Shown: piece after piece, positions 1,829-34,385 of the stretch
Layout: each line of letters opens with the position of its first letter
How positions within the stretch are numbered: position 1 is the stretch's first letter
Assembly (NCBI GenBank): GCA_037783545.1
Contig: JBBELK010000376.1
Span: 682,001 to 746,000, forward strand
Direction: 5' to 3'
Source: Henricia sp. BOLD:AAB3569
Lineage: Eukaryota > Echinodermata > Asteroidea > Spinulosida > Echinasteridae
DNA length: 64,000 nucleotides
Notes under the pieces: model-generated
The model's input: only the letters and a program-made list of their open reading frames with translations
Databases searched by the model: none
Told to the model about the DNA's origin: nothing
Position numbers and translations under genes: made by a program

Positions 1829-2067
1829 CTCTTTTCTTGTTTTCGTTCTCTCAGAAAAAGGAGCGAATACTTCCCAACGAGACCGCCTTTGGGTTGCCAC
1901 AAAGAGCGCAGCTGTAAAGGTGGTCTTGGCTGAGCTTTATAACCTAACAAGCATAAATGTTCGGCCACTGTTGGGGACGATATTTTATTTGTCATCGTTG
2001 GAATAATTAATTATATTGCAGTCTTGTGAACTAGTGTTGATGCTGCCACTGACTTGTTTGATCGAAG

Positions 2068-2117
2068 GTCGTTAGGGCCGAGTGGATAAGACGTTGTACT
2101 TGAAATCCAAAGGGATT
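2068..2117 (+). pseudogene. tRNA-Ser fragment (3' half deleted)
   Basis: The 5' half through the anticodon arm (cttgaaa loop, TGA anticodon) is followed directly by post-tRNA spacer; variable loop, T arm and acceptor 3' strand are missing. It has several private substitutions, fitting an array-edge relic. Confidence 0.75.
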
Positions 2118-2198
2118 TGTTGAAGGGTCTTCTGGTTTTTTTTGTCGGGTAAGGTATTTGAGAAAAGTTCATGAGAATATATTTGCAACTGCTCACTG

Positions 2199-2501
2199 GC
2201 TAGGCGTTGTGGCGTGCGCCTGTAATCCAGCCACTTTGCAAACCGGAGTTGGCGGATTGCATGAGTTCGGGAGTCCCTGTGGGTTTGTTTCTACTGTGAC
2301 GATCGGGTGTCCACGCTGAGCTCGGCATCGGCATGGTCAATCTGGCGAAGGCCGGGGAGACCAGGTTGACTGAGGAGGGGCGAACCAGTCCAGGGCGGAA
2401 ACGCAGCAGACAAAAGTCCCCGTGTGGAGCAGCAGCGGGACCGCACTCGAGAACAGTAGTCTACTCGCAACCCGGACAATAAGGTGAGACCCAACTCTTT
2501 T
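2199..2501 (+). ncRNA. 7SL: 7SL (SRP) RNA, left outlying copy
   Basis: Full length (303 nt) with UGUAAU and the complete S domain. It differs from the core consensus at several places, e.g. gctagg at the 5' end and gggagacc in helix 6. It ends in TTTT. Its upstream tRNA is truncated. As the most divergent complete copy on the left, it may be a relic. Confidence 0.85.
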
Positions 2502-2656
2502 CTTTTTTTCGTTCTCTCAGAAAAAGGAGCGAATACTTCCCAACGAGGCCGCCTTTGGGTTGCCACAAAGAGCGCAGCTGTAAAGGTGGTCTTGGCTGAG
2601 CTTTATAACCTAACAAGCATAAAGTTTGGCCACTGTTGGGGACGATATTTTATTTG

Positions 2657-2682
2657 TCGAGAACAGTAGTCTACTCGCAACC
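2657..2682 (+). pseudogene. 7SL 3'-end fragment (left piece)
   Basis: Array spacer ending at 2656 jumps directly to the 7SL 3' domain (tcgagaacagtagtctac...), which is then cut by the insertion that starts at 2683. The fragment resumes at 5135. Confidence 0.75.
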
Positions 2683-2746
2683 TAGTCTTTCGGAAAGACT
2701 GCCTTTTTGCGCGCAATACACGATGTACATAGACTATTCACCATTG

Positions 2747-2765
2747 GCCGCCAGAGGGCGCACCT
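2747..2765 (+). repeat. Subterminal inverted repeat, left; CTCF-like motif
   Basis: The sequence gccgccagagggcgcacct is matched in inverse orientation at 5071-5089 with one mismatch. With its flank it also resembles the CTCF core (CCNSYAGRKGGCRS). Confidence 0.6.
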
Positions 2766-4023
2766 GAAATACAGTCGAAAAGACAGTCTTTCATATTCCG
2801 TATAAATCGCTCGCAAAATACCGAGCGAATTCCTGGCATACCTTTGTGTGACACGTTGAAATGCGTGACGTCATCTAATTTCCATAATTCACAACAGCTC
2901 TGGTCTGTCTGGTACCCAGAGTACACACTGGACAGGACAGTGCATACAAATGTCGCTGCTTTTCCAGTCGCTGATCGCAAACATGATATGAGGCAAACAC
3001 GTTGTCCACGGACAAAGCTATCTTGCGCGTTGCACTCAGTGGCTCGCCTGTACCGTACGTCCGGGCCTTGCCGCTTGCCGGCCTGCGTTGCTCGTACGGT
3101 GGGGTTAGACCCGTGAACGGGTCTACGGTCGGGTGTGATGATTGGGCGGCCAGTGAAGACGAAGCATTTTCGTTCCAAGTTGGGAATCGAAAAGTTCAAA
3201 GGCTATCAAAGACTGGCATTTAGAGATTTTCTTGGGGCATTTTCTGCTTGGTCACGATTTTATTTCATCGCTTACGCATGGAGGAAGAAAACGACTGGGA
3301 TTGTTTTCTTCTCCTCTATACTATGGCATGCTTGTCATATTATTGGCTTCGGTAAAAAAAAAAAGTGCTAAACGATTTCAGAGAAGTTATCCACTACTAG
3401 TTTTCACTAAAATGACTTGCAAGCATCAGTTAGTTCAGATATGATAGAAAAAAACCAAAATTTAGGAGTGAATTAATCTGAGTGAAGAACCACCTACTTT
3501 CTTAAAAACTACTAATTTCACTCACTATCACATGCTTTGTACACAATGTTTGAAGTAATTGTACATTACAAAAGTAATTGTACATTTTCTAAAGTCAAAT
3601 ATGACCCATTTGATTTTCATTTAGGCCAACAAAAAATAAGCCAAATTGTTGTGACCCAAGGATCGACCTTTTACGGCCTATTTAAAACAATACTTTTTTT
3701 TCTGATTCTTCGTGCATGTTTTTGTTTTTACAGCAAGCAGAATTGCAGAAAATTAATTAGAGCAACTTGCTTGCATAAGCCTCCGAAAATATACTGGAAT
3801 AACGTTTAATGGAACAAATTTAAATTTGATGTTTATTAGTTTACTAAATGTTTAAAATTTAACAATTTTCAGTGCTTTGAGGAGAATGCTTTGAGAAGGC
3901 CCATTAATTTTGTGGATATGAAGCTATTTTTACGAATTCCAGGGAACAACAGCAAACTACTTTGTAGATAGGACAGAAGCCCTTGAAGGAAATTTGCACA
4001 GTTTGGTTAACTAAAAACAAAAT

Positions 4024-4685
4024 GGAAATGTTCGTCAACATTGTCTGATTCATTAGTTTAATATTTGCAGAAATAATTTGAATTTTTAGGTTGAATTCCA
4101 TATCCGACCACTTATAAACGTCTTTATTCTGTAAATGAAAAATAAACAATGCATGTTAGAACAAGTTTGATGATAAAAATGAGAAATAAAATTATGACAT
4201 GTCTGATTTTAGGCCCCCAACCTGGATTTCCATTGTTATAAAAACATGTAAAATTTTAGTTTAGTTGTAAAAACCATGGTGTAAAAACTAAGAGAGGAAT
4301 TTTCATGATTTTTTAATTTTTTCCCACTGCTGTCCAACATTGTCCAAGGAAATGTTCGTCAACATTGTCTGATTCATTAGTTCAATATTTCACTTAAAGT
4401 GCAGAAATAATTTGAATTTTTAGGTTGAATTCCATATCCGACCACTATAAACGTCTTTATTTTGTATTAAATGAAAAATAAACAATGTATGTTAGAACAA
4501 GTTTGATGATAAAAATGAGAAATAAAATTATGACATGTCTGATTTTAGGCCCCCAGCCTGGATTTCCATTGTTATAAAACCATGTAAAATTTTAGTTTAG
4601 TTGTAAAAACCATGGTGTAAAAACTAAGAGAGAGAAATTTTCATGATTTTTAGATTTTTTCCCACTGTTGTCCAACATTGTTCAA
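4024..4685. repeat. 324-bp tandem duplication, two copies
   Basis: 4024-4347 and 4348-4685 are near-identical direct copies (both start ggaaatgttcgtcaac and end with tgtccaacattg). Small indels separate them, e.g. extra cacttaaagtg in the second copy. AT-rich, non-coding. Confidence 0.85.
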
Positions 4686-5070
4686 TGTTTTGGCCATGGC
4701 ATTGGGTCTTAAATCTACACGGACAGGCACCCCCGGCCGGGGACAGGAAGTCACCGGGCTGGGCTGGGCGCGCACTCGTACCGAGAAATGCCGCTTCTCG
4801 GCAGGCAATGCACCACGGTCACTGCACGAAAACGGCCCGATATCATTTTCGCGCGGCACGGTGAATCACTAGCACTGCACACGTACAAAATGTACACGGC
4901 AAGTTACCATCCCACATGACCTAATTATGGAGGCATCGCTTTCTCTTCTACGCAGGCGCCCATAATTTTTGACCTTGCTGTTTAATTATTCATGTGCTTC
5001 CATTAAGGTTATCGAACTTTTTTCTTACGGAGTAATCAAGACCAAGTTTTCGAGTTCACGTTGTAAGTGT

Positions 5071-5089
5071 AGGTACGCCCTCTGGCGGC
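5071..5089 (-). repeat. Subterminal inverted repeat, right; CTCF-like motif
   Basis: Inverse match to 2747-2765 (aggtacgccctctggcggc on the + strand). The two sites face each other across about 2.3 kb. Confidence 0.6.
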
Positions 5090-5134
5090 TAAAATGAACA
5101 ATGTGGGGATCGCGAACTCGGTCTTGCATCAAGA

Positions 5135-5175
5135 CTACTCGCAACCCGGACAATAAGATGAGACCCAACTCTTTT
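5135..5175 (+). pseudogene. 7SL 3'-end fragment (right piece)
   Basis: Continuation of the fragment interrupted at 2682. It runs through gagacccaactctttt, the normal 7SL 3' end, and into ordinary array spacer. Confidence 0.8.
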
Positions 5176-5408
5176 CATTTTTTCGTACTCTCAGAAAAAA
5201 AGAGGCGAATACTTCCCAACGAGGCCGCCTTTGGGTTGCCACAAAGAGCGCAGCTGTAAAGGTGGTCTTGGCTGAGCTTTATAACCTAACAAGCATAAAG
5301 TTTGGCCACTGTTGGGGACGATATTTTATTTGTCATCGTTGGAATCATTACTGATATTGCAGTCTTGTAAACTAGTGTTGATGCTGCCACTGACTTGTTT
5401 TATCCAAG

Positions 5409-5489
5409 GTCGCGGTGGCCGAGTGGTTAATGCGTTGGACTTGAAATCCAATGGGATGTCCTGCGTAGGTTTGAATCCTGCCCACGACG
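5409..5489 (+). tRNA. tRNA-Ser(UGA)-like, best-preserved anticodon stem
   Basis: TGA anticodon in the loop CTTGAAA with a fully paired stem (TTGGA/TCCAA), unlike core copies. A box TGGCCGAGTGG is intact. The T loop reads TTTGAAT, losing the invariant C, and the acceptor stem has a C-A mismatch, so function is doubtful. Confidence 0.65.
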
Positions 5490-5580
5490 GTTTGTGATTT
5501 GTTGAATGGTCTTCTGTTTTTTTTGTCGGGTAAGGTATTTGAAGAAACGTTCATGAGAAAATATTTTCAACTGCTCACTG

Positions 5581-5882
5581 GCTGGGCGTTGTGGCGTGCG
5601 CCTGTAATCCAGCCACTTTGGAAGCCGGGGTTGGTGGATCGCATGAGTTCGGGAGTCCCTGTGGGTTTGTTTCTACTGTGCCGATCGGGTGTCCACGCTG
5701 ATCTCGGCATCTGCATGGTCAATCTGGCGAAGGCCGGGGTGACCAGGTTGACTGGGGAGGGGCGAACCTGTCCAGGGCGGAAACGCAGCAGACAAAAGTC
5801 CCCGTGTGGACAGCAGCGGGACCGCACTCGAGAACAGTAGTCTACTCGCAACCCGGACAATAAGGTGAGACCCAACTCTTTT
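5581..5882 (+). ncRNA. 7SL: 7SL RNA copy
   Basis: 302 nt. It shares tgtgccgatcggg, catctgcatgg and the one-base-shorter gtgtggacagcag with the copy at 24461, so these two are recent relatives despite lying 19 kb apart. Confidence 0.92.
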
Positions 5883-5932
5883 CTTGTTTTCGTTCTCTCA
5901 GAAAAAGGAGCGAATACTTCCCAACGAGGCCG

Positions 5933-5952
5933 CCTTTGGGTTGCCACAAAGA
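5933..5952. repeat. Target-site duplication, 3' side of Tx1 LINE
   Basis: The 20-bp cctttgggttgccacaaaga is identical to 12931-12950. It is a normal part of each array spacer and forms a small hairpin (CTTTG/CAAAG). Confidence 0.95.
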
Positions 5953-7064
5953 CTTTTTTTGACTTTTCAAAAGGACATCTTTATTGCATCTTCAGTAATG
6001 ATAACAATAATATTTACAAAGTAAAAAACGAAAACATAAGATTAACACAAAGATGCAAAATCTAAGTCAAAATAAGTACATAGATATATTAGTGAACAGA
6101 ATAATTGATTTGGTATTTAGTAAAGTAACATAATAAGTTGAACACATTGTAGGTCTCATTAGGGATAGTAAATAGGAAACTATGTTACTTGAATATACTT
6201 TTAAACAAATAAGAAAATAACTGATCAACAAAACAAAATAGTTCATAATACATGTTAAATCATGAAACAAAGGCGTATTTAAACATACACAAGTGGCGCT
6301 CCACTTACAAAGAAGAAAAAAGACGATACATTCTTGACAACAACACAGAGAAAGAAGGAGAGAAGAAAAAAGTGGGTACCCATCCGGGGAGGAATGGGTA
6401 GGGAAGGCCAGGGGCCGCCAACCACAGCATGCGGGCGCAATGCGCCCGCAAGTGGCGACCTCCGTCCACGGGGGTAGGAGGAGGGACGTGTTGTTGTCAC
6501 TTAGATTGGATTAGAAAAAAACAAGAAGAAAGAAAACAGAAGAGAAACATGAGTGAAGACTGAGAGGGGATCACCAATGCCCGGACCGGAGGCTACGCCA
6601 TGTCTCGACAAAAGCCGAGCAGCCGATCCGGACACTAGCAAGGAGATTCACGTCAGCAAGCCCGCCCCCACACCGGAGGGACGGGCAAGCCGACGCAACA
6701 TAAAAAGAAAGACAAAAAGACAAAATAAAGAGCGGGGGTTGGGGCGGACGCCGGTGCCCAGATCGGAGGCAACTGCCATGTCTCGACAAAAGCCGAGCAG
6801 CCGATCTAGACACCAGCAAGAAGATTTACGCCAGCAAACCCACATCCAGACCGGAGGTATACACCATGTCTCGACAAGTCGAGCAGCCGATCCAGGGGCA
6901 AGAGAGCCGACGCAAAATCCCAGGACAAAAAAAGGGGGGAAATTATAAAAAAAAAAGACAGAATGGCTCGAAACCCGGAAAGCGTGGCATACAGCCTGTC
7001 TCGCTAAAAGCGAGCAAACGCTCCGGGAGACGAGCCGAAGAAGAGTCACAGGGAAATATGAAAG
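5953..7064 (-). other. Tx1 LINE 3' UTR
   Basis: 1.1 kb between the ORF2 stop and the A-rich end. The GC-rich part (6580-7040) holds three copies of a short motif able to form a hairpin, and the distal part is AT-rich. Small ORFs here are not supported as genes. Confidence 0.75.
6597..6892 (-). repeat. Direct repeats in LINE 3' UTR with hairpin motif
   Basis: Copies at 6597-6628, 6775-6806 and 6863-6892 share catgtctcgacaaaagccga and then gcagccgatc, and each is preceded by a ccggaggc-type box. CTCG/CGAG can pair around the aaaagc loop. The third copy lacks three bases of the loop. These could be recognition structures for the element's own reverse transcriptase, which is an inference. Confidence 0.7.
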
Positions 7065-10000
7065 TTATATCAACCACGTCATCATACCGTTGTTGTATTC
7101 AAAGATTGCGTTGTTAATTGACCATTTTTGGTGAAAACGAGGGAGATTGTTGATTGATTTGTAAAATGAGAAATTTATTAGAATTTTGAATTTGAGATTG
7201 TGTTTCCAGATGATGAGAGGGTCGACGAAGTGAGAAGTATGGTAGAGAAAATAGATGGTGTTTTTGCAGCTGATGAGAGAATTCGACAATCGAACTGTCT
7301 CCTTGCTGCGACTCTTCGCGTGCGGGATGAGGGCCCAGTAGAGGTCAAAGTTCAGTTGTGTAGAAGGAAGAAGGCGACTTAGCATCTGATGAAGAGTTGT
7401 GAGGATTGGCTGGATTGCTGGGCAGGTGATGAATAGGTGCTTGATTGAGCCCGGCTCTCCGCACCATCCACAGGAAGCAGATCTGTCGGGTATGATGTGA
7501 CTTAGTACAGCAAGCGATGGAAGGATGTTGTGAAAAAGCTTGAACTGTACGTCGTCCTCTTTCTTTGTTGAGTGCAGGTGATATAATTGTTTCCATTGAA
7601 TGGAAGTTCCAGGATTCAGAAAGCCGTTTTCATGCCAGTGTGAAGATAACGGAGAAGACGAAGTGTTGAAGATATTGTAGATGACTTTGGATGGTGCGGA
7701 GAGTCCATTTTGTATTGAAGAGAAGACAAAATTGACGGGAGTGTCCGGAAATGGTGGGAGAGCGCAGAGTTGAGAAACGGGAAGACGACATCCATTAACG
7801 CAGAAGACAGTTGGGAAGTGCTGAAGTAGTGACAGATGGATACGGTGAAGATCTTGTTCAAGAAGACGAAGCGAGGGTGGGCGGAGTCCTTGGAGGGGGA
7901 AATGGAAGGTCCGGGCGTCAATCCAGAGAGCGGTGTTAAAGTCGATGAGATGGCGGACGAGAAGAATACCGCACGCTTTGAGCCGCAGGGGAGGCATAGC
8001 GTCACCATCAGCTGCATCATTAAGTAGGCTAGCAATTGGTAAATTAATGACGTGGTTGATATTGTCAGGTCGCGTTTCCAATCGAGCCCCGGACGCCGTC
8101 CAGGCACGCAGTATGTCACTGTAGAAGCAGGGAAGGCGAGAGTGGAATTTCGGATCAGTGTTGAAGTGAAAAAGTTGGAAATCATAACCCAGTTTCTTGT
8201 ACTGTCTTAAGAAATGGCGGAAGAGTAGGAAACTGGGATGGGGGGAGAGGTCGAGAAAACGTTGTATAGTGCGAAGTCGAAATGTCATAATGCGTGCCTG
8301 GAGGCGTGCCAGACCCATCCCTCCATTGTCAGGTTTTTGATACAAAAGTTCCTTTTTAAGGTGGTGCTGCTTGCGGGACCAGACGAAATTGACAAGACTT
8401 TCTTGGAGTTCACGGATAACATTGTCTGGAGGAGAAAGAACAGCAATGCAGTGGAAGATTTTTGAAGCGGCAAGTTGATTAGCAATTAAAACTTTTCCTT
8501 TGAAAGAAAGAGAGTAAAGACGGTGAAACCAGGAATTAAGAGTTTTGTTAAGTTTTTCTTTGCATTTAATCCAGTTTTGTTTTATGTAGTTATTTGTGTT
8601 CCCAAGGTGAACTCCAAGAAAGGCAAGTCCTTCGCTATTCCAAGAAAAACCCAGAGGATTGTCTTTCCGTCCGGTCCAGGATCCGACCCACAATCCCTGG
8701 GACTTCCGGGTATTGAGACATGCAGAAGAGGCGCTGCTAAAGAGGTCATATACCTCTTCAGCAACGTTAAAGCCTGCGTCGGAGGTGATAAAGAGAGACA
8801 CGTCGTCTGCGTACGCCGACACAGAGACAGATGAGTTTGTATCAGGAATATGAAACGAATAGGGAGAAAGTTTTAGTCTAAGTTTATTGATGAGTGGTTC
8901 AATGGCGATTGAGTACAGCAGCCCCGAGAGCGGGCATCCCTGCCTTATTCCTTTCTCAAATGGGAAAGGAGAGGTCAGGGAGCCACCGACCTTAACAAGG
9001 CTCTCGGCGCTGCCGTACAAAATGTCGATGTGTCGGATGAAACGATCCCCAAAGCCCATGGCCCTCATTGTGTTAAACAAGTAGCCGTGGTCAACGTTAT
9101 CAAAGGCTTTCTTCTGATCAAGGTTGACCACGGCTAAAGGCAAGTCATTAGCATTAAAGTAAAATAAAATATCCCGAATTAAATTTAAATTATCATATAT
9201 TGATCGGCCCGGGACACAGTAGGTCTGGTCGGGGCCGTCGACGCTGCCAATGCATTGCTTTAACCTGCCGGCAAGCAACTTGGCAAAAATCTTGTAGTCA
9301 GTGTTTGAAAGGGAGACGGGCCGCCAATTGGTAATATCGGCCAAGTCACCCTTCTTGGGCAAAAGGGTGATGACAGCACGTCTCAAGGAATGAGGAAGGG
9401 AACCTGAGGAGAAGGAAGCGTTGAGAACGGCAAGAAAATCATTTTTGAGAGTGGGCCAGAAGCACTGACAAAATTCTGAAGAGAGGCCGTCAAGACCGGG
9501 CGTTTTGTTTTTGCCAAGTTCCCTGACGGCGAGGTCGAGTTCCTGCAGAGATAGAGGGCGCTCGAGGTCCTCTGAGTCTGCAGGGTCAAGTTGATTTAAT
9601 CCAATTAACAGTTCGCCGAGGGCGCTCTTGTCTGTTGGAGTAGAAGTGTAGAGGGACTGGTAAAAGTCATGGATATGGGTTTTGATTTCTTTAGGATTAT
9701 CGGTGATTTGCCCAGTGGCAAGACGAATTCTAGAGATGTGTTTAGAAGCAGAGTTGTTTTTTTCCAAGTTGAAGAAGAATGTGGAGCAGGTGTCAGTTTC
9801 ATTAGTGAATTTGAAGCGGGATCTGACAAGAGCGCCCTCCGCTTCACACTTTAACAGAAAATTTAAATTGTCCCTATGCCCCTTAAGAGCGTCTCTTATT
9901 TCTAAAGTGAAGTCTGGCGCAGACTGAAGATCGTTTATTTTTTTGTTAAGTTGAAAGAGTGTTTGACGTTTTTGGCGAGCGATTTTACTGCTATACATCT

Positions 10001-10943
10001 GGGTGATGGACTTTATGTGGGACTTTCCAAAGTCCCACCACGAGGCTAGATCTGGAAAGTCTCCTTTTTTAATTGTCCAATCAGCCCAGAAGTGGTTTAT
10101 AATGTCTTTGTAGTTGTCATCATCTAAGAGAGAGTTATTAAAATGCCAGTAAGCACTCCCTCTTTGAATTCGAGAGGGGAAAGTAAACGCAATACTGACA
10201 GCACTGTGATCGGAGAGAGAACAGGGAATAATAGACACAGAATTAACCGAGGGGCATAAGGAGGAAGGAATGTAAACACGATCTAACCTGGCTTTATAAA
10301 CACCCTGCACAGAGGCTGGGTAGTTATGAAACCAGGTGAACTCTTGTTTGTTGGGATTCAGTCTGCGCCAGGCATCACAAAGGGACAATGCATTGACAGC
10401 GCCCCTGAGAGCCATGACGACTTTGGGTCTACGCTCAACCAACGTACGCAGACGATCAACAAGAGGATTAAGACAACAATTGAAATCACCTCCTATTATG
10501 ACATTGTCACTGAAGCTGGAACTATGGTCCACAAAGGATTGAATGGCTTTAAGAGCAGTATCGTTATTTTGTGGAATTAAAGTATTGTAGAGGTGAAAAA
10601 CAGTATCTTGAAATTTAAATTTAGTGTAATGAATATAACCGGGGAAAATAGAAGAATGAGAGAGAACATCAATTTTGTTGGATTTTATGAGCGTGGTGAC
10701 TCCCGATCCGGGGGTGGGCCCGGGAGAACAGTGGGGGCTGTGGGACCATACGTTCCAGCACGAGTTTTGTTCTTTTAAAGTATATGTTTCTTGAAGGAAA
10801 ATAATATCAGGGCTATTACCAAGGGTATCAGTGAACATTTTGAGAGCAGTATTTTTTATGGGGGATAGGCATCCCCCCGTGTTAAGAGTGAGCAATGACA
10901 ATGTCATGACGCAGGCCAAAAACACACGCAAAGAAACCTCCAT
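7065..10943 (-). CDS. Tx1-type LINE ORF2: endonuclease/reverse transcriptase
   Basis: An intact 1292-residue ORF. The N-terminal apurinic-endonuclease domain shows FLQET (about residue 49), IIGGDFN (about 150), DRVYIPSSL and LSDHSAVS (about 244). The reverse transcriptase shows NWRPVSLSN (about 538), GIRQGCPLSG (about 669) and the catalytic YADD (about 711). The C-terminus has a CX2CX8HX4C knuckle (CGWCGE...HLFITC, about 1159), as in L1/Tx1 ORF2 proteins. It nicks the target and copies the LINE RNA there by target-primed reverse transcription. No stop or frameshift is visible, so this ORF could still be active. The likely start is Met1 at 10943; the ORF1 stop lies about 135 bp upstream. Confidence 0.95.
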   Translation of the reverse strand: MEVSLRVFLACVMTLSLLTLNTGGCLSPIKNTALKMFTDTLGNSPDIIFLQETYTLKEQNSCWNVWSHSPHCSPGPTPGSGVTTLIKSNKIDVLSHSSIFPGYIHYTKFKFQDTVFHLYNTLIPQNNDTALKAIQSFVDHSSSFSDNVIIGGDFNCCLNPLVDRLRTLVERRPKVVMALRGAVNALSLCDAWRRLNPNKQEFTWFHNYPASVQGVYKARLDRVYIPSSLCPSVNSVSIIPCSLSDHSAVSIAFTFPSRIQRGSAYWHFNNSLLDDDNYKDIINHFWADWTIKKGDFPDLASWWDFGKSHIKSITQMYSSKIARQKRQTLFQLNKKINDLQSAPDFTLEIRDALKGHRDNLNFLLKCEAEGALVRSRFKFTNETDTCSTFFFNLEKNNSASKHISRIRLATGQITDNPKEIKTHIHDFYQSLYTSTPTDKSALGELLIGLNQLDPADSEDLERPLSLQELDLAVRELGKNKTPGLDGLSSEFCQCFWPTLKNDFLAVLNASFSSGSLPHSLRRAVITLLPKKGDLADITNWRPVSLSNTDYKIFAKLLAGRLKQCIGSVDGPDQTYCVPGRSIYDNLNLIRDILFYFNANDLPLAVVNLDQKKAFDNVDHGYLFNTMRAMGFGDRFIRHIDILYGSAESLVKVGGSLTSPFPFEKGIRQGCPLSGLLYSIAIEPLINKLRLKLSPYSFHIPDTNSSVSVSAYADDVSLFITSDAGFNVAEEVYDLFSSASSACLNTRKSQGLWVGSWTGRKDNPLGFSWNSEGLAFLGVHLGNTNNYIKQNWIKCKEKLNKTLNSWFHRLYSLSFKGKVLIANQLAASKIFHCIAVLSPPDNVIRELQESLVNFVWSRKQHHLKKELLYQKPDNGGMGLARLQARIMTFRLRTIQRFLDLSPHPSFLLFRHFLRQYKKLGYDFQLFHFNTDPKFHSRLPCFYSDILRAWTASGARLETRPDNINHVINLPIASLLNDAADGDAMPPLRLKACGILLVRHLIDFNTALWIDARTFHFPLQGLRPPSLRLLEQDLHRIHLSLLQHFPTVFCVNGCRLPVSQLCALPPFPDTPVNFVFSSIQNGLSAPSKVIYNIFNTSSSPLSSHWHENGFLNPGTSIQWKQLYHLHSTKKEDDVQFKLFHNILPSLAVLSHIIPDRSASCGWCGEPGSIKHLFITCPAIQPILTTLHQMLSRLLPSTQLNFDLYWALIPHAKSRSKETVRLSNSLISCKNTIYFLYHTSHFVDPLIIWKHNLKFKILINFSFYKSINNLPRFHQKWSINNAIFEYNNGMMTWLI

Positions 10944-16309: not shown

Positions 16310-16329
16310 ATTTGTTGAAGGGTCTTCTG

Positions 16330-25964: not shown

Positions 25965-26034
25965 TTGGAATCATTACTGATATTGCAGTCTTGTAAACTA
26001 GTGTTGATGCTGCCACTGACTTGTTTTATCGAAG

Positions 26035-26115
26035 GTCGCTGTGGCCGAGTGGTTAAGTCGTTGGACTTGAAATCAAATGGGATGTTCCGCATAGGTTCGA
26101 ATACTGCCCACGACG
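26035..26115 (+). tRNA. tRNA-Ser(UGA)-like
   Basis: gtcgctgtggcc (acceptor change) and aagtcgttgg in the D arm, plus core stem defects. Confidence 0.55.
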
Positions 26116-26204
26116 GTTTGTGATTTGTTGAAGGGTCTTCTGTTTTTTTGTCGGGTAAGGTATTTGAGAAAAGTTCATGAGAATATATTTTCAACTGCTC
26201 ACTG

Positions 26205-26507
26205 GCTGGGCGTTGTGGCGTGCGCCTGTAATCCAGCCACTTTGGAAGCCGGGGTTGGTGGATCGCATGAGTTCGGGAGTCCCTGTGGGTTTCTTTCTAC
26301 TGTGACGATCGGGTGTCCACGCTGATCTCGGCATCGGCATGGACAATCTGGCGAAGGCCGAGGTGACCAGGTTGACTGGGGAGGGGCGAACCGGTCCAGG
26401 GCGGAAACGCAGCAGACAAAAGTCCCCGTGTGGAGCAGCAGCGGGACCGCACTCGAGAACAGTAGTCTACTCGCAACCCGGACAATAAGGTGAGACCCAA
26501 CTCTTTT
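26205..26507 (+). ncRNA. 7SL: 7SL RNA copy
   Basis: Full length; private gggtttctttc, catggacaatc and ggccgaggtgacc. Confidence 0.92.
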
Positions 26508-26740
26508 CTTGTTTTCGTTCTCTCAGAAAAAAAGGAGCGAATACTTCCCAACGAGGCCGCCTTTGGGTTGCCACAAAGAGCGCAGCTGTAAAGGTGGTCT
26601 TGGCTGAGCTTTATAACCTAGCCAGCATAAAGTTTGGGCACTGTTAGGGACGATATTTTATTTGTCATCGTTGGAATCATTACTGATATTGCAGTCTTGT
26701 AAACTAGTGTTGATGCTGCCACTGACTTGTTTTATCGAAG

Positions 26741-26821
26741 GTCGCGGTGGCCGAGTGGTTAAGGCGTTGGACTTGAAATCAAATGGGATGTTCCGAGTAG
26801 GTTCGAATACTGCCCACGACA
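26741..26821 (+). tRNA. tRNA-Ser(UGA)-like
   Basis: Core type with ccgagtagg in the variable/T arm region and final base A. Confidence 0.6.
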
Positions 26822-26910
26822 GTTTGTGATTTGTTGAAGGGTCTTCTGTTTTTTTGTCGGGTAAGGTATTTGAGAAAAGTTCATGAGAATATATTTTCAA
26901 CTGCTCACTG

Positions 26911-27213
26911 GCTGGGCGTTGTGGCGTGCGCCTGTAATCCAGCCACTTTGGAAGCCGGGGTTGGTGGATCGCATGAGTTCGGGAGTCCCTGTGGGTTTCT
27001 TTCTACTGTGACGATCGGGTGTCCACGCTGAGCTCGGCATCGGCATGGTCAATCTGGCGAAGGCCCGGGTGACCAGGTTGACTGAGGAGGGGCGAACCGG
27101 TCCAGGGCGGAAACGCAGCAGACAAAAGTCCCCGTGTGGAGCAGCAGCGGGACCGCACTCGAGAACAGTAGTCTACTCGCAACCCGGACAATAAGGTGAC
27201 ACCCAACTCTTTT
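26911..27213 (+). ncRNA. 7SL: 7SL RNA copy
   Basis: Full length; gggtttctttc shared with 26205, and gtgacaccc near the 3' end where others have gtgagaccc. Confidence 0.92.
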
Positions 27214-27444
27214 CTTGTTTTCGTTCTCTCAGAAAAAGGAGCGAATACTTCCCAACGAGGCCGCCTTTGGGTTGCCACAAAGAACGCAGCTGTAAAGGTG
27301 GTCTTGGCTGAGCTTTATAACCTAACAAGCATAAAGTTTGGCCACTGTTGGGGACGATATTTTATTTGTCATCGTTGGAATCATTACTGATATTGCAGTC
27401 TTGTGGACTAGTGTTGATGCTGCCACTGACTTGTTTTATCGAAG

Positions 27445-27525
27445 GTCGCGGTGGCCGAGAGGTTAAGGCGTTGGACTTGAAATCAAATGGGATGTCCCGC
27501 GTAGGTTCACATACTGCCCACGACG
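27445..27525 (+). tRNA. tRNA-Ser(UGA)-like
   Basis: A box TGGCCGAGAGG (T to A), T arm ggttcacat; both internal promoter boxes are altered. Confidence 0.5.
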
Positions 27526-27614
27526 GTTTGTGATTTGTTGAAGGGTCTTCTGTTTTTTTGTCGGGTAAGGTATTTGAGAAAAGTTCATGATAATTTATTT
27601 CCAATTGCTCACTG

Positions 27615-27728
27615 GCTGCGTTGTGGCGTGCGCCTGTAATCCAGCCACTTTGGAAGCCAGGGTTAGTGGATCGCATGAGTTCGGGAGTCCCTGTGGGTTT
27701 GTTTCTACTGTGACGATCGGGTGTCCAC
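27615..27728 (+). pseudogene. 7SL 5' part, split by a LINE
   Basis: Begins gctgcgttg (two G lost) and stops after gatcgggtgtccac, where the LINE begins. The remainder lies at 30914-31102. Confidence 0.9.
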
Positions 27729-27732
27729 ATCG

Positions 27733-30477
27733 GGTGTTCTATAATTGCTCTAACTGAAACTTGGCTTAAGAATCCATCTCCTAACGAATTTACTCTACCT
27801 GGATATAAACTTGTCACAGTAAATAGACCTGATAAAATCGGTGGGGGTGTTGCACTATACATCAAAACCGGTATTGACTATGAAATATTGAAAGACTTTA
27901 GTAATTACTCCCCATCCATGGAATCCTTGTTTGTTGAAATTAGAAATCCTTCTGGAAAAAATATTATATTTGGAGTAGTTTATAAACCATCAAGTGCACC
28001 CTTCAACGAATTTATGGATAGATTAGAGATCATACCAAAGAATATCGATGAGTGGTAAACAATGCTTACTCTGTGGTGACTTTAATATAAATTTAATGGA
28101 CCAAGAAAATAGTTGTACTCAAACATTTTTGGATATTATGTACTCTTATACTCTTATTCCTTTAATAAATAAACCAACTAGGATTACGAAAAATTCAGCT
28201 ACATTAATCGACAATATATTTACCAATATATTACCGGTGCCCAAATCTACAATCTTAATTTCTGACCTAAGTGACCACCTACCAGTATCTACAACATTAC
28301 CTTTAGTTAAACAGAATAAAAATCCAACCCTCCATTCGAATCGCATTTACTCAAATGAAAGTCTAAATAAATTAAACGAAGACCTAACTCTAGCAGACTG
28401 GTCCTCCGTATATAATTCTAGTGACGTAAACGAAGCTTACAATCAATTTCATAACATCTTCTGGTGTTCGTACAATAAAAATATACCCCTAAGGAAGTCT
28501 AAAAAAAACAAGAACAAGCCTAAAGCACCATGGTTAACACAATCCTTATTAAAGTCAATTAATCTAAAAAATAAATTATATCGTAAATTTATCGCAAAGC
28601 CAAATGAAACCAACCACGCTAATGACACCAGGTACAAAAATATATTGACGAATGTATTACGTGCAGCAAAAAAAACAGTATTACCATACTCAGTTTAATA
28701 AGGAAAAAAACAACATAAAAAATACATGGAATATTATTAACTCAATCCTAAATAGAAACAACTCTAATCAGACTTTGACAACAATGAAAGTAAATGGAAA
28801 TTCAGTTGATGATCCAGCAACAATTGCTCATCACTTTAACAGTTATTTTGCTAACATAGGTCCTAATCTTGCTCAAAATATTCCGGACAGTGAAACTGAT
28901 TTTACAGAATATCTCTCTGAACCAAATAACAACAGTATGTTTCTAGCTCCCGCAACAAAATATGAGATACGAGATATTGTTATGAATCTTGCTAACAAAA
29001 CAAGTTGTGGTATGGATGGCATTAGCATGGCTACAATTTAAAAAGTTATTGATTCTATTTCTGAACCTCTTACGCATATAATAAATTTATCATTGTCAAC
29101 TGGTGTTGTTCCTTCTGATTTAAAGATAGCTAAGGTTATTCCTATATTTAAAAATGGTGAGCCTGACCAATTTGGTAATTATAGACCGATATCGCTGTTA
29201 CCTAGCTTTTCTTATAAATACTTGAGAAGATTGTTCATATTACAACTGTAGAGTTTTTGTAGATAAACAATATCTTGTCAAATTTTCAATTTGGTTTCAG
29301 GTCTAAACACTCTACGACTCACGCTATACTTCAGCTATGTAACACAATTACATCTGCATTTGAAAGTTCTAAGCACACTCTGGGTATTTTTCTTGACTTT
29401 TCAAAAGCGTTTGATACTCTAGATCATGACATACTTCTTCAAAAACTCTCCCATCATGGCATACGAGGTATTTCTCTTGACTGGTTCAGAAGCTATCTGT
29501 CGCAAAGAAAACAAAGAGTTGTAATTAATGGACACACATCTTCCTTTCGTTCGGTAACATGTGGCGTTCCCCAGGGATCAATCCTTGGACCACTTCTTTT
29601 TTTAATATACATTAACGATTTTACTAAATCTTTAGATATTTTAACATTTATACTTTTTGCCGATGATTCTAACTTATTCTTTAGTCATAAAAATATCTCT
29701 ACTTTAATAAATGTAGTCAACAGTGAACTTAAAAACATATCTAACTCGGTAAAAGCTAACAAACTATCGTTCAATATTAAGAAAACCTGTTGTATGTTAT
29801 TTAGTAATTCTCTAAGTAAGTTGCCGATAGACATTTGTATTGAAAATGACAAAATTAACGAAGTTGATAATGTGAAATTCCTGGGCATCTTTATTGACAA
29901 CAAGCTTTCATGGAAAACGCATATAGATTATGTATGTAAACTTATCTCAAAAAATATTAGTGTAATTGCCAGACTTAGATCATTTTTACCTCCAAACATT
30001 TGTATTATATTGTATAACAGTTTGATTTTGCCTTACATCAACTATGGAATATTAGCCTGGGGCAATGCCGCTAAAAGGTTTATAAACAGGTTATTCCTTC
30101 TTCAGAAAAGAGCTATCCGCATCATTACTTGTTCAAGTTTTTTGGCGCACACAGATCCGCTCTTTAAACAATATGAACTATTAAAAATTTGCGACATTTA
30201 TCAATCCCAGGTAGCCATATTCATGTTCCAGATAACCAAAAATGCCATTCCAAATTGTCTTACTTCACTATTTATGCAAAATAAACATGTGCATACCCAT
30301 CATACCAGACAGGCCAGCCATTTCCATATCCCAGAAATTCGCACTGCACTCGGGAAAAAAAACTTAACATATGATGGTCCAAAATTGTGGAATTCACTTC
30401 ATCCTAATTTAAAATGCATAGACAGATTAACAGCTTTTAAAAAAGAACTAAAATCTCAAATTCTAGAAAAATACTAG
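27733..30477 (+). pseudogene. CR1/L2-type LINE ORF2 remnant (endonuclease + RT)
   Basis: Endonuclease pieces: TETWL, GGGVALYI, VVYKPS, then after a frameshift near 28040 LLCGDFNINL and SDHLPVST. After another frameshift near 28680 comes a linker with MDGISMATI, a stop at 29039, then NYRPISLLP. The last open stretch (29275-30477, 400 residues) has GFRSKHST, LDFSKAFDTLDH, GVPQGSILGPLLFLIYINDF, and FADD (about residue 128), followed by the LGIFIDNKLSW and NYGILAWGN regions usual for CR1/jockey-type elements. At least two frameshifts and one stop make it dead. Confidence 0.9.
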
Positions 30478-30913
30478 TTTATACCTATTGTTTCACTCAA
30501 TTTTGATTTGTATTTTGCATGACTGCGACTTCAATGCTTGTTTGTTTATTTTGCTTACATGTTGTAGTTTCGCCACTTATTTCAAGTACCACCATATTGC
30601 TAATTTCCCAATAATGCTAAATTAATCTGCTTAACAATCGGTTCCTCCTTGTTTTAACTGGCTTCTAAATATTCTACCCTTGTGTTAGTATAGGGGTTAC
30701 ACTATTATTTGCAATTTCACTTTATATCATCTTATCGAAAACTAATGTAAAAATTTATATGGATTCCCACACTAGACAAGCTATGCTTTTTGTGGGTTTC
30801 CACCATATTTATATGCAACAGTATTTAAACTTACAACATAGTATTGTCAAAAATAATAGATTACTGTGTGTGTAAATGCATATATGGAAATAAAGTGAAG
30901 TTGATTGATTGAA
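30478..30913 (+). other. CR1/L2-type LINE 3' UTR
   Basis: AT-rich; ends gaaataaagtgaag then ttgattgattga, directly followed by 7SL sequence. Confidence 0.75.
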
Positions 30914-31102
30914 ACGCTGAGCTCGGCATCGGCATGGTCAATCTGGCGAAGGCCCGGGTGACCAGGTTGACTGAGGAGGGGCGAACCGGTCCAGGGCGGA
31001 AACGCAGCAGACAAAAGTCCCCGTGTGGAGCAGCAGCGGGACCGCACTCGAGAACAGTAGTCTACGCGCAACCCGGACAATAAGGTGAGACCCAACTCTT
31101 TT
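30914..31102 (+). pseudogene. 7SL 3' part, split by a LINE
   Basis: S and 3' domains from acgctgagctcgg onward, continuing 27728. Both halves are otherwise ordinary array sequence, so the insertion post-dates this unit. Confidence 0.9.
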
Positions 31103-31329
31103 TTTGTTTTCGTTCTCTCAGAAAAAGGAGCGAATACTTCCCAACGAGGCCGCCTTTGGGTTGCCACAAAGAGCGCAGCTGTAAAGGTGGTCTTGGCTGA
31201 ACTTTATAACCTAGCAAGCATAAAGTTTGGCCACTGTTGGAGGCGATATTTTATTTGTCATCGTTGGAATCATTACTGATATTGCAGTCTTGTAAACTAG
31301 TGTTGATGCTGCCACTGACTTGTTTTATC

Positions 31330-31398
31330 GAGTGGTTAAGGCGTTTGACTTGAAATTAAATAGGATGTTCCGCATAGGTTCGAATACTGCCCATGACG
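31330..31398 (+). pseudogene. tRNA-Ser-like, 5' end deleted
   Basis: Acceptor 5' strand and A-box start are missing (atcg joins agtggttaag); the anticodon stem and acceptor 3' end are further mutated (ttaaatagg, ccatgac). Confidence 0.75.
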
Positions 31399-31488
31399 GT
31401 TTGTGATTTGTTGAAGGGTCGTCTGTTTTTTTTGTCGGGTAAGGTATTTGAGAAAAGTTCATGAGAATATATTTTCAACTGCTCACTG

Positions 31489-31790
31489 GCTGGGCGTTGT
31501 GGCGTGCGCCTGTAATCCAGCCACTTTGGAAGCCGGGGTTGGCGGTACACATGAGATCGGGAGTCCCGGTGGGTTTGATTATACTGCGACGATCGGGTGT
31601 CCAGGCTGAGCTCGGCATCGGCATGGTCAATCTGGCGAAGGCCGGGGTGACCAGGTTGTCTGAGGAGGGGCGAACCGGTCCTGGGCGGAAACGCAGCAGA
31701 CAGAAGTCCCCGTGTGGAGCAGCAGCGGGACCGCACTCGAGAACAGTAGTCTACTCGCAACCCGGACAATAAGGTGAGACCTAACTCTTT
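31489..31790 (+). ncRNA. 7SL: 7SL RNA copy, right outlying
   Basis: 302 nt but diverged: ggtacacatgagatc, gtccaggctg, gttgtctgagg, cagacagaag. It ends in TTT followed by A, so the terminator is weak. Possibly a pseudogene. Confidence 0.8.
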
Positions 31791-32017
31791 ACTTGTTTTC
31801 GTTCTCTCAGCAAAATGAGCGAATACTTCCCAACGAGGCCGCCTTTGCGTTGCCACAAAGAGCGCTGCTGTAAAGGTGGTCTTGGTTCAACTTTATAACC
31901 TAACAAGCATAATGTTCGGTAACTGTTGGGGACGATATTTGTCATCGTTGGAATCATTACTGATATTGCAGTCTTCTGAACTAGTGTTGATGCTGCCACT
32001 GACTTGTTTTAGCGAAG

Positions 32018-32112
32018 GTCGTGGTGACGCTGGCCAAGTGGTTATAATTGTAAGGCGTTGGACTTGAAATCCAATGGGATGTCCCGCGTAGGTTCGAATC
32101 CTGCCCACGACG
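32018..32112 (+). pseudogene. tRNA-Ser(UGA)-like with intact stems but D-arm inserts
   Basis: Acceptor (GTCGTGG/CCACGAC), anticodon (TTGGA/TCCAA) and T (GTAGG/CCTGC) stems are paired, and the B box GGTTCGAATCC is perfect. However, 6 extra nt precede the A box and 8 lie in the D loop, giving 95 nt. It preserves bases the core array has lost. Confidence 0.7.
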
Positions 32113-32156
32113 TTTTGTGATTTGTGATTTTTAACTGCTCACTTTCACTGCTTCAC

Positions 32157-32299
32157 TGACCAGGTTGGCTGAGGAGGGGCGAACCGGTCGAGGGCGGACA
32201 CGCAGCAAACAAAAGTCCCCGTGTGGACCAGCAGCGGGACCGCACTCGAAAATAGTAGTCTACTCGCAACCCGGACAATAAGGTGAGACCCAACTCTTT
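32157..32299 (+). pseudogene. 7SL 3' fragment
   Basis: From helix 6 (gaccaggttgg) to the 3' end; the 5' half is absent. Confidence 0.85.
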
Positions 32300-32526
32300 A
32301 CTTTTTTTCGTTCTCTCAGCAAAATGAGCGAATACTTCCCAACGAGGCCGCCTTTGCGTTGCCACAAAGAGCGCTGCTGTTAAGGTGGTCTTGGTTCAAC
32401 TTTATAACCTAACAAGCATAATGTTCGGTAACTGTTGGGGACGATATTTGTCATCGTTGGAATCATTACTGATATTGCAGTCTTCTGAACTAGTGTTGAT
32501 GCTGCCACTGACTTGTTTTAGCGAAG

Positions 32527-32621
32527 GTCGTGGTGACGCTGGCCAAGTGGTTATAATTGTAAGGCGTTAGACTTGAAATCCAATGGGATGTCCTGCTTAG
32601 GTTCGAATCCTGCCCACGACG
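32527..32621 (+). pseudogene. tRNA-Ser(UGA)-like, duplicate of 32018
   Basis: Same D-arm inserts as the copy 509 bp upstream; private gcgttagac and tcctgctt changes. Confidence 0.7.
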
Positions 32622-32929
32622 TTTTGTGATTTGTTAAAGGGTCTTCTGTTTTTTTGTCGGGTGAGGTATTTGCAAAACGTTTATGAGAATTTATGTTTAA
32701 CTGCTCACTTGATATGTCGGTCATGTCGGGTCAAGTCAAGTAGTCACGACCGTAAATTTGTTTCAAAAATAATGAGTCTAAACGCTGAAACTTGGATTTG
32801 TGTGGGCTATTTTTGTTAATCTGGCCAATGCTCCATGTTTAAACAAAGCTTAGTCTTATGTTTCTGGACATACAATTCGGTCCTCAAAATTACAAAAAAA
32901 GGTCTCCCTCTCCTTAAGTCCCAAGTCAA

Positions 32930-33030
32930 GTTAAATACTGCCTTTGAGTCTCAAGTCAAGTCAAGTTAGTGAAAATTGGGACTCGAGTCGACTCGAGTCC
33001 CGAGTCTTGAGTCCCAGTCTTTACAACACC
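32930..33030. repeat. GACTCGAGTC-rich simple repeat
   Basis: Degenerate runs of caagtcaagt and gactcgagtc; a larger patch of the same kind is at 43690-44140. Confidence 0.6.
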
Positions 33031-33130
33031 ACTGAGACCTGGTCAAACAGGTCTCGCTAGTTATGTAGTCTAAAAGTGCCAACTAACCATTAAGACCTGG
33101 TCAAACAGGCTTCGCGAGTTAGTTCATAGC

Positions 33131-33195
33131 CACTGAGACCTGGATTCGAAATCCAATAGGAATTTCCCGCGCATGTTCGAAACCTGCCTACGACG
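33131..33195 (+). pseudogene. tRNA-Ser-like 3' half, CGA anticodon loop
   Basis: tggattcgaaatcca gives an anticodon loop TTCGAAA (CGA, still serine). The T arm and acceptor 3' strand follow; the 5' half is missing. Confidence 0.6.
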
Positions 33196-33276
33196 TTTTG
33201 TGATTTATTTTTAAAAACAAATTTCAGTGAGGTATTTGCGAAAAGTTCATGAGAATTGATTTTCAACTGCTCACCG

Positions 33277-33500
33277 GCTGGGCGTTGTGGCGCGCGCCTG
33301 TAATTCAGCCACTTTGGAAGCCGGGGTTGGCGGATCGCATGTGGGTTTGTTTCTGCTGTGACAATCAGGTGTCCACGCTGAGCTCGGCATCGGCATGGTC
33401 AATCTGGCGAAGGCTTGGGTGGCCAGGTTGACTGAGAAGGGGCGAACCGGGACCGCACTCGAAAACAGCAGTCATCTGTAAGGTGAGACCCAACACTTTT
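33277..33500 (+). pseudogene. 7SL with internal deletions
   Basis: 5' domain and part of the S domain (to gcgaaccgg), then a jump to gaccgcactcg and a shortened 3' end. Confidence 0.85.
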
Positions 33501-33607
33501 CTTTTTTAGGTCTCTCAGAAAAAGGAGCGAATACTTCCCAACGAGGCCGCCTTTGGGTTGCCACAAAGAACTAGTGTTGATGCTGCCACTGACTTGTTTT
33601 ATCGAAT

Positions 33608-33674
33608 GTCGTGGTGGCCGAGTGGTTAAGGCATTGGACTTGTAATCCAATGGGTTTTCCCGCGCAGGTTCGAG
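33608..33674 (+). pseudogene. tRNA-Ser-like, truncated; anticodon TGT
   Basis: Good acceptor 5' strand, A box and paired anticodon stem, but the loop reads CTTGTAA and the gene stops within the T arm (ggttcgag). This marks the right edge of the array. Confidence 0.65.
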
Positions 33675-34385
33675 GGCGCTGTTTCGTTTAATTACGTCAT
33701 CACTTAATTTTAGAAAGCCCGAGGGCCTGACACTAACACTGTTGACCCATCTCAATACCTTCTACCAGTTTCAAACCAAGGGTCACTTCCGGTTTCAACC
33801 GAAAATGAGCAAGGTCTACGGAAGGTCATCGCCATATTTTGTAGATACCCCACCCTAGTTGAACCTTATACCGTTAACCATATTCAGATATCTCTCACCA
33901 CTTTCAAATGGAAAGGCAAAATTTGTTTGACCAATAGGAAATGAGGTCAAAGGTCAAGGCATGTGCGCATCTTAGAGACGTTCGTTAGTGATCGATCGTA
34001 TATGGCTAAGGAATCAAGATCGAAGGTCAAACGTTTAATTTGTTATTGATTTTTAAATATTTAATTATTTAATCATCTTGTCGGTAAAGGGCGCTATATT
34101 TCGTATGATGACGTCATCGCTTATATTTTTGGAAAGCTTGGGGCCTCCGCAAAGAGTTATATATAGAAAACTAGAGTGCGCACTCAGAAGTGAGCAAGGT
34201 CAAAGGCCATCGCCATCTTTTTTTGATACCCCACCCTAATATAACCCTAACACCGTGACCCCATCCGGATATATCTTACGACTTTCAAATGACAAGGCAA
34301 AATCTGTTTGATCAAAGGTCAAAGCATGTGCGCATCTTAAAGATCGTATATGGCGAAAGAATCAGGATCGTAGGTCAAAAGGTTG
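33675..34385. repeat. Tandem duplication, two diverged copies
   Basis: Copy 1 (33675-34045) and copy 2 (34087-34385) share gacgtcatc, gagcaaggtc, ataccccaccct, gactttcaaatg, ggcaaaat, gcatgtgcgcatctta and gatcgtatatggc in order. No coding sequence. Confidence 0.8.

Follow-up and report, generated by a model that had tools for sequence, protein, structure and literature searches.

Layout and extent of the array

The window analysed here is a 64,000-nucleotide stretch of the sea star Henricia sp. BOLD:AAB3569 (assembly GCA_037783545.1, 740.7 Mb in 2104 contigs), positions 682001–746000 of contig JBBELK010000376.1, hereafter C376. It contains a tandem array in which genes for 7SL, the RNA of the signal recognition particle (SRP), are linked to copies resembling the serine transfer RNA gene tRNA-Ser(UGA). 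The initial annotation of this DNA had read, from motifs in the letters, at least 21 full-length 7SL genes alternating with tRNA-Ser(UGA)-like genes in one orientation. Our cmscan search at the gathering threshold agreed with this count and this orientation, returning 23 Metazoa_SRP (RF00017) matches, all on the plus strand: 21 full-length, one partial and one degenerate. The 21 full-length copies matched model positions 1–299 with 211.1–228.5 bits against a cut-off of 70, and their E-values (2e-56 to 2e-61) exclude chance, so that the 7SL identity first proposed from motifs was upheld by the covariance model, with the motifs kept. The same window gave 23 tRNA-family matches with cmscan, and ARAGORN called 20 tRNA-Ser(UGA) genes, again all on the plus strand.

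The array extends well beyond the window. We searched the fetched parts of the contig (C376:305001-425000, C376:427834-433484, and the window with its flanks) by BLAST with one 7SL copy and one tRNA copy as queries, and found 102 full-length 7SL copies in three blocks, together with 19 partial 7SL pieces. Thus the count of 21 was right for the window but fell short of the real extent. Block A holds 78 full 7SL copies at C376:311-417k (72 on the minus strand, six on the plus strand), block B holds three at C376:430-432k, all on the minus strand, and block C, the window itself, holds 21, all on the plus strand. Full tRNA-like copies number 108 over the three blocks, with six partial ones; block C accounts for 25 full and five partial tRNA-like copies and for 11 of the partial 7SL pieces. 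The pairing is close to complete: 99 of the 102 full 7SL copies have a full tRNA-like copy 82–92 bp upstream on the same strand, the exceptions being one in block A and two in block C, and within the window 19 of 21 have one less than 200 bp upstream on the same strand.

Complete units in the window follow each other at about 694–707 bp, or at 1045–1057 bp across a truncated unit of about 350 bp, and the spacing grows to several kilobases where retrotransposons interrupt the array. In block A, 66 of the 71 minus-strand steps are below 800 bp (65 at 704–708 bp and one at 691 bp). The truncated units, which retain about the first 107 bases of 7SL, come at regular places between about 13700 and 27500 of the window, and this regularity suggests higher-order repeats of several units.

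We scanned the whole genome with an exact 28-base helix 8 pattern that accepts both the array letter and the letter of a single 7SL gene on contig C525 (described below), and that misses copies with an altered pattern. It gave 101 matches (28 forward, 73 reverse), and the reversed control gave 0 and 0. Among the 100 matches listed, which include all 28 forward ones, every one lay on C376:311-713k; the remaining reverse match is presumably the C525 gene, which carries the pattern. Degenerate dispersed pieces were seen among the best 30 of 47 candidates, with tRNA and 7SL parts on C30 and C917 and a 7SL part alone on C64.

Array 7SL compared with the canonical gene

The top-scoring 7SL of the genome search was the single gene on C525, 299 bases long, with 257.9 bits. 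When this canonical gene was used as the query, the best 40 of 115 candidates comprised the gene itself (100%), full or nearly full array copies at 78–80% and then truncated array copies, with no match beyond C525 and the array contig. The array and canonical 7SL sequences share about 79% identity. In the cmscan scoring of array copies, which covered blocks A and C, the block A matches of about 303 bases reached 207.5–222 bits, and one 265-base match reached 132.2 bits. We had considered the window array as the main 7SL locus and rejected this, because the single C525 gene scores better; for the same reason we treat the array as a second class.

The array copies nevertheless keep the landmarks of a 7SL gene. 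UGUAAU, the SRP9/14 site, and the helix 6 GNAR loop are present in 102 of 102 copies, and the helix 8 GGAA and AGCAG motifs in 101. A T4 run near the 3' end, the terminator for RNA polymerase III (Pol III), is present in all 102, the 5' sequence GCTGGGCG in 98, and the loop GTGGCG and the CCAGG before the helix 8 loop in 97 each. Upstream of the canonical gene we read a TGACG (ATF-like) element and a TATA-like stretch from the letters. Among the 102 array units, 89 carry TATATTTT or TTTATTTT at -35 to -13, and 96 have an A/T run of at least eight bases in that interval.

To evaluate the divergence of the array 7SL against its fold, we used a covariance-model alignment of 299 positions and 120 model pairs, with just three inserted bases across the array copies shown. 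Between the canonical gene and each of two window copies there are 63 differences over the 299 positions, yet the two copies form 96 and 97 of the 120 pairs, and the canonical gene forms 97. Random changes left 75.5 pairs (standard deviation 4.1; maximum 90 in 2000 trials). Eight pairs were changed on both sides, relative to 1.6 expected (maximum 7), and seven pairs were lost while six or seven were gained. We then polarised the changes with the Rfam consensus and assigned all ambiguous changes to the array branch, which gives 47 changes as an upper bound. Along this branch the number of pairs went from 98 in the ancestor to 97. In the null with the same base spectrum, 83.5 pairs remained (standard deviation 3.1; maximum 96), none of 5000 shuffles reached 97, and random placement would have cost about 14 pairs where the array branch lost one net. 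Seven pairs on this branch were compensated by a double change (null mean 1.08, maximum 6). That up to 47 changes cost one net pair argues that the array 7SL evolved as a structured RNA, and through most of the time since it separated, its lineage has evidently been constrained by the 7SL fold.

Variation among the copies points the same way at the level of whole regions. In blocks A and B, 48 of 302 7SL sites segregate versus 132 of 441 sites in the pooled rest of the unit (p = 1e-5), and in block C the corresponding figures are 39 of 302 and 108 of 439 (p = 8e-5). Between the block consensuses, 7SL differs at 7 of 302 positions, the tRNA at 7 of 88, the tRNA-7SL spacer at 7 of 82, the far spacer at 6 of 114 and the 3' flank at 3 of 39, so that 7SL compares with these four other parts as 7/302 versus 23/323 (p = 0.005). 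A stretch of about 114 bases immediately before the tRNA is the same in the block consensuses, while the other five parts all differ; this invariant segment may be either a conserved element or a conversion tract.

The tRNA half and the surroundings of the array

The tRNA half of the unit presents a different picture. We scored the stems of the 101 tRNA-like copies of exactly 81 bases (78 in blocks A and B, 23 in block C), the seven other full copies, of other lengths, being set apart. The acceptor stem was complete in none of the 101, and every copy had stem mismatches, 3–5 in blocks A and B and 2–11 in block C. The damage is particular to each block. In blocks A and B the D stem is never complete (0 of 78, with 0–1 of its three pairs kept), while all 78 keep a complete anticodon stem and 36 a complete T stem; in block C the D stem is complete in 14 of 23 copies, and the anticodon and T stems in one each. 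The A box is intact in 78 of 78 and in 21 of 23 copies, respectively, and the B-box core in 78 of 78 and in none of 23. A functional tRNA was rejected on these mismatch counts. The linkage of 7SL with tRNA-Ser proposed initially is real, but with its tRNA half damaged the unit hardly resembles a pair of working genes. A dicistronic tRNA-7SL transcript is also unlikely, because the T run between the genes has four T in one unit and 6–14 T in the other 101.

The blocks differ in anticodon as well, with UAA in all 83 full copies of blocks A and B and UGA in all 25 of block C, and on account of the UAA anticodon ARAGORN names the block A copies tRNA-Leu. The dispersed C30 and C917 pieces preserve the order of tRNA and 7SL and carry a UGA-type anticodon, as read from the letters, which makes UGA the likely ancestral anticodon of the unit. 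Elsewhere in the genome, tRNA-Ser genes on C96 (CGA) and C429 (UGA) score 64 bits and one on C9 (UGA, with a damaged acceptor stem) 43.9 bits; the array tRNA-like copies listed score about 30–51 bits, and the highest-scoring one in the window has one D-stem mismatch and an altered T loop, as read from the letters. Among the best 40 of 158 candidates, the C429 gene is the one undamaged tRNA-Ser(UGA) outside the array, and further ones may exist. Separate tandem arrays with a period near 161 bp lie at C608:128-186k and C731:118-330k (L060, L061), and in 700 bases read from them ARAGORN called one tRNA-Ser(CGA) and two tRNA-Ser(AGA).

The window features are collected in Table 1. The larger retrotransposon in it, which we take to be Tx1/L1-like, belongs to an element with further copies at the array at C376:305-311k, 311.9-318.9k, 337-344k, 376-383k and 402-409k. 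The six copies meet the array at position 373 and/or 354 of the unit, about 20 target bases being duplicated, and their 10 readable junctions agree; in the 376-383k copy the outer end is rearranged and meets the array at position 80 of the unit. The window copy is 98.2–99.1% alike to four block A copies, whose flanking units are only about 95% alike to its own, and the window and block A copies therefore look like independent insertions. Within block A the flanks are as alike as the elements, so that copies there could have arisen by duplication. At four of eight other places read (C1493, C103, C24 and C124; L063, L064, L066 and L068), the element occupies a similar ACAAGGA site within another satellite, and the copies on C28, C1550, C190 and at C376:443.9k have other flanks. 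Strict site specificity for the array was thus rejected in favour of a preference, the six array copies sharing their junction.

Several other features lie nearby. A nanos zinc-finger gene stands beside the array at 1035-1643 of the window, and a second nanos-like copy, which lacks part of the zinc finger, lies between block A pieces at L017:9195-9864 (-); the two share 89% identity over 1.1 kb. A match to the histone 3' untranslated region stem-loop (L017:9130-9175, minus strand, 39.1 bits, cut-off 34) lies directly 3' of the second copy, and vault RNA matches also lie between block A pieces at L017:8782-8900 (-) and L018:669-787 (-), with 52.5 and 56.5 bits (cut-off 34). A minisatellite with 19/38/57-bp units occupies 53842-54288 of the window. 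On C955 and C2104, mitochondrial COX1 occurs three times head to tail, spaced at 16,221 bp, beside a 16,221-bp single copy, and the triple contig is probably an assembly concatemer. This COX1 reads well with TGA as Trp, AGR as Ser, AAA as Asn and ATA as Ile, which we take to be the echinoderm mitochondrial code, and its comparison with PDB entries returned strong matches to cytochrome oxidase.

Table 1. Array units and interrupting elements in the window (window coordinates)
Feature	Position	Strand	Evidence
Block C of the 7SL/tRNA-Ser array, with retrotransposon insertions inside	1829..33673	+	BLAST maps
7SL gene 1	2199..2500	+	RF00017, 211.6 bits
7SL gene 2	5581..5881	+	RF00017, 216.9 bits
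7SL gene 3	13228..13529	+	RF00017, 227.8 bits
7SL gene 4	14285..14586	+	RF00017, 224.9 bits
7SL gene 5	14991..15292	+	RF00017, 215.7 bits
7SL gene 6	15696..15996	+	RF00017, 212.8 bits
7SL gene 7	16394..16695	+	RF00017, 225.3 bits
7SL gene 8	17088..17388	+	RF00017, 213.9 bits
7SL gene 9	18138..18439	+	RF00017, 224.9 bits
7SL gene 10	18844..19145	+	RF00017, 215.7 bits
7SL gene 11	19550..19851	+	RF00017, 222.9 bits
7SL gene 12	20600..20901	+	RF00017, 224.9 bits
7SL gene 13	21306..21607	+	RF00017, 215.7 bits
7SL gene 14	22013..22314	+	RF00017, 225.3 bits
7SL gene 15	22707..23007	+	RF00017, 213.9 bits
7SL gene 16	23756..24056	+	RF00017, 216.8 bits
7SL gene 17	24461..24761	+	RF00017, 216.9 bits
7SL gene 18	25160..25461	+	RF00017, 225.3 bits
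7SL gene 19	26205..26506	+	RF00017, 216 bits
7SL gene 20	26911..27212	+	RF00017, 228.5 bits
7SL gene 21	31489..31790	+	RF00017, 211.1 bits
Partial 7SL	30900..31053	+	RF00017, 103 bits, model 97-251
Degenerate 7SL	33277..33499	+	RF00017, 78.6 bits
tRNA-Ser(UGA)-like, top score of window	5409..5489	+	RF00005, 51.3 bits; ARAGORN
tRNA-Ser(UGA)-like	13065..13145	+	42.8 bits; ARAGORN
tRNA-Ser(UGA)-like	13764..13844	+	42.3 bits; ARAGORN
tRNA-Ser(UGA)-like	14114..14194	+	31.6 bits; ARAGORN
tRNA-Ser(UGA)-like	14819..14900	+	42.4 bits; ARAGORN
tRNA-Ser(UGA)-like	15526..15606	+	42.8 bits; ARAGORN
tRNA-Ser(UGA)-like	16229..16309	+	42.8 bits; ARAGORN
tRNA-Ser-like	16918..16998	+	32.7 bits; no ARAGORN call
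tRNA-Ser(UGA)-like	17623..17703	+	42.8 bits; ARAGORN
tRNA-Ser(UGA)-like	17967..18047	+	31.6 bits; ARAGORN
tRNA-Ser(UGA)-like	18672..18753	+	42.4 bits; ARAGORN
tRNA-Ser(UGA)-like	20086..20166	+	42.8 bits; ARAGORN
tRNA-Ser(UGA)-like	20429..20509	+	31.6 bits; ARAGORN
tRNA-Ser(UGA)-like	21134..21215	+	42.4 bits; ARAGORN
tRNA-Ser-like	22537..22617	+	32.7 bits; no ARAGORN call
tRNA-Ser(UGA)-like	23242..23322	+	42.8 bits; ARAGORN
tRNA-Ser(UGA)-like	23585..23665	+	31.6 bits; ARAGORN
tRNA-Ser(UGA)-like	24289..24370	+	42.4 bits; ARAGORN
tRNA-Ser(UGA)-like	24994..25074	+	42.8 bits; ARAGORN
tRNA-Ser(UGA)-like	25684..25766	+	ARAGORN only
tRNA-Ser(UGA)-like	26741..26821	+	41.7 bits; ARAGORN
tRNA-Ser(UGA)-like	27445..27525	+	36.6 bits; ARAGORN
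Degenerate tRNA-like	32032..32104	+	30 bits
Degenerate tRNA-like	33608..33666	+	30.2 bits
Non-long-terminal-repeat (non-LTR) retrotransposon (AP-type endonuclease and reverse transcriptase) in array spacer, between duplicated target bases	5953..12930	-	RVT_1 and Exo_endo_phos in 7065-10979(-); junctions
Second retrotransposon remnant (reverse transcriptase) between array pieces	28027..30477	+	RVT_1 in 29263-30477(+); array interrupted

Origin and possible role of the array

We consider it probable, though well short of certain, that the array represents a second class of 7SL (SRP RNA) genes, divergent and amplified, with a decaying tRNA passenger. Its founder would have been a 7SL gene about 90 bp downstream of a tRNA-Ser(UGA) gene, duplicated as a unit of about 706 bp that then spread over three blocks of one contig to reach 102 full copies or more, with unequal exchange or conversion within blocks keeping the copies similar. 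Each copy would be read by Pol III from its own start, through internal 5' sequence and an AT-rich TATA-like stretch near -25, and transcription would stop at T4, raising the SRP RNA dose. The tRNA half, its cloverleaf lost, would be a passenger or at most a spare upstream landing site for TFIIIC. We infer this route of growth, the transcription of the array and the assembly of its RNA into SRP from the sequence.

Several observations weigh against this model. The covariance-model alignment under the pair test is biased towards structure. Full array copies score about 30–50 bits below the canonical gene, and their branch changed faster, with 36 changes relative to 15 derived in the canonical gene when polarised with the Rfam consensus. 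TGACG or its complement was found within 80 bases upstream in none of the 102 array units. The tRNA-7SL spacer (14/90) and the 3' flank (5/40) of block C are about as invariable as 7SL, and the contrast between blocks fades to p = 0.057 once the 114 upstream bases are included. Lastly, 7SL variants among copies break pairs at the rate expected by chance (18 of 49, null 18.3, and 19 of 40, null 20.7), and ongoing selection on pairing among the copies was looked for and not seen. Taking these data with the variation and motif counts above, we read them as a class under constraint whose single copies are each weakly selected, a pattern that redundancy among many genes would produce, but a young satellite whose founder was functional would leave much the same traces.

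Such a satellite, a once-functional 7SL/tRNA pair that was tandemly amplified and spreads by unequal exchange without function, its quality reflecting a recent functional founder, is a possibility we take seriously but think the less probable. It would account for the 2–11 stem mismatches in each of the 101 scored tRNA copies, for current 7SL variants that do not avoid pairs, for the regular recurrence of truncated units, for the retrotransposons inside the array and for the degenerate pieces on C30, C917 and C64. Against it, 7SL is less variable per site than the pooled rest of the unit in both block sets, and T4 ends are retained in all 102 copies and the tested motifs in 97–102 of 102. The initial annotation had offered SRP RNA dosage and an expanding satellite as alternatives, and here fold-keeping divergence and lower 7SL variation favour a gene battery, although the behaviour of present variants does not. 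An assembly artefact, in which a few real units were joined repeatedly, is very improbable: tandem repeats are hard to assemble, and the same assembly contains the triple COX1 contig, but there are 55 distinct 7SL sequences among the 102 copies, fixed substitutions and the anticodon separate the blocks, retrotransposon insertions and other sequence lie between array pieces, and the fetched stretches of blocks A and C contain no N.

Two further explanations concern the tRNA half. It might be kept for its A and B boxes as an upstream promoter for 7SL, as in trypanosomatids, where 7SL and small nuclear RNA (snRNA) genes are driven by the boxes of an upstream tRNA or tRNA-like gene (PMC4950102). 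In both systems a Pol III small RNA gene adjoins a tRNA or tRNA-like gene whose boxes may matter, and the trypanosomatid tRNA-like sequence does not fold as a cloverleaf either (PMC4950102). Consistent with this, blocks A and B keep the A box and B-box core in 78 of 78 copies while the D stem has decayed, the block consensuses agree at all 114 bases 5' of the tRNA, and the canonical TGACG element is missing from the array units. However, none of the 23 scored window copies retains the B-box core, the tRNA diverged between blocks as fast as the spacer, and the geometry differs: in trypanosomatids box A is found about 104 bp upstream and points the opposite way (PMC4950102), whereas in Henricia the tRNA-like copy is on the same strand as 7SL, farther away and in tandem. 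We regard such a promoter role as unlikely; one in another geometry than that of trypanosomatids may exist. Far less credible still, and the least probable of the explanations considered, is that the UAA blocks make a mis-sense tRNA, with a serine-type body reading leucine UUA codons. The discriminator G marks serine identity, and in blocks A and B it accompanies an intact anticodon stem in 78 of 78 scored copies; the anticodon there is UAA in 83 of 83 full copies, versus UGA in 25 of 25 in block C, but the D stem keeps at most one of three pairs, the acceptor stem is never complete, and such a tRNA should be harmful if made.

The second-class 7SL array was also compared with mobile and arrayed small RNA genes. 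It resembles 7SL-derived short interspersed elements (SINEs), such as Alu and hagfish SINE1, in having many 7SL-derived copies (PMC10886601), but its copies are full-length, tandem, on one contig and with a shared spacer, and the dispersed pieces among the best 30 of 47 candidates are few and degenerate. We rejected a 7SL SINE because the 100 pattern matches listed all lie on one contig, and likewise an LTR element carrying a Pol III gene (Helenus/Ajax, PMC10886601), since the listed copies lie on one contig; no search aimed at LTRs or tails as such was made. Hydractinia has tandem non-coding RNA arrays of rRNA, U1, U2, U5, U6, U3 and tRNA genes, and the H. echinata draft has 5S, SRP RNA and tRNA arrays; the likeness is that small RNA genes, SRP RNA among them by a brief mention, occur there in tens to hundreds of nearly identical copies whose spacers are nearly identical too (PMC11067881). 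The passages on these arrays describe no linked SRP-tRNA unit, no split into canonical and array genes and no damaged partner gene (PMC11067881). Tandem SRP RNA arrays on their own thus have a precedent in Hydractinia, while among the papers listed in searches of open-access literature none described an animal with tandem 7SL-tRNA units or with two classes of 7SL.

Details of the sea urchin U1 and U2 repeat genes were reportedly given by Santiago and Marzluff in 1989, Nash in 1989 and Stefanovic in 1991. These echinoderm small RNA repeat genes are the closest echinoderm analogy for the array: the U1 and U2 snRNAs have developmentally regulated forms, and the U1 gene repeat undergoes a switch (PMC4291461). 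They differ in being other RNAs with other promoter types, and in Henricia it is the single gene that is closer to the Rfam consensus. By this analogy, the array could possibly have a germline or early-embryo role. A full developmental switch, with the array as the oocyte and early-embryo SRP RNA class and the canonical gene serving the adult, is a tentative extension that we hold to be rather unlikely as it stands; under it, the SRP of eggs and embryos would contain a different RNA, with an altered helix 5/6 and GAAG replacing GGAG in the loop of helix 6, and some hundred genes would supply it.

The unit is a clear case in which different damage has been fixed block by block in the tRNA half while the 7SL half stayed sound. 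To our knowledge, an animal is usually credited with a single, invariant SRP RNA. A genome that holds one canonical gene beside about a hundred fold-keeping copies at 79% identity makes the existence of SRP RNAs specialised by tissue or stage directly testable.

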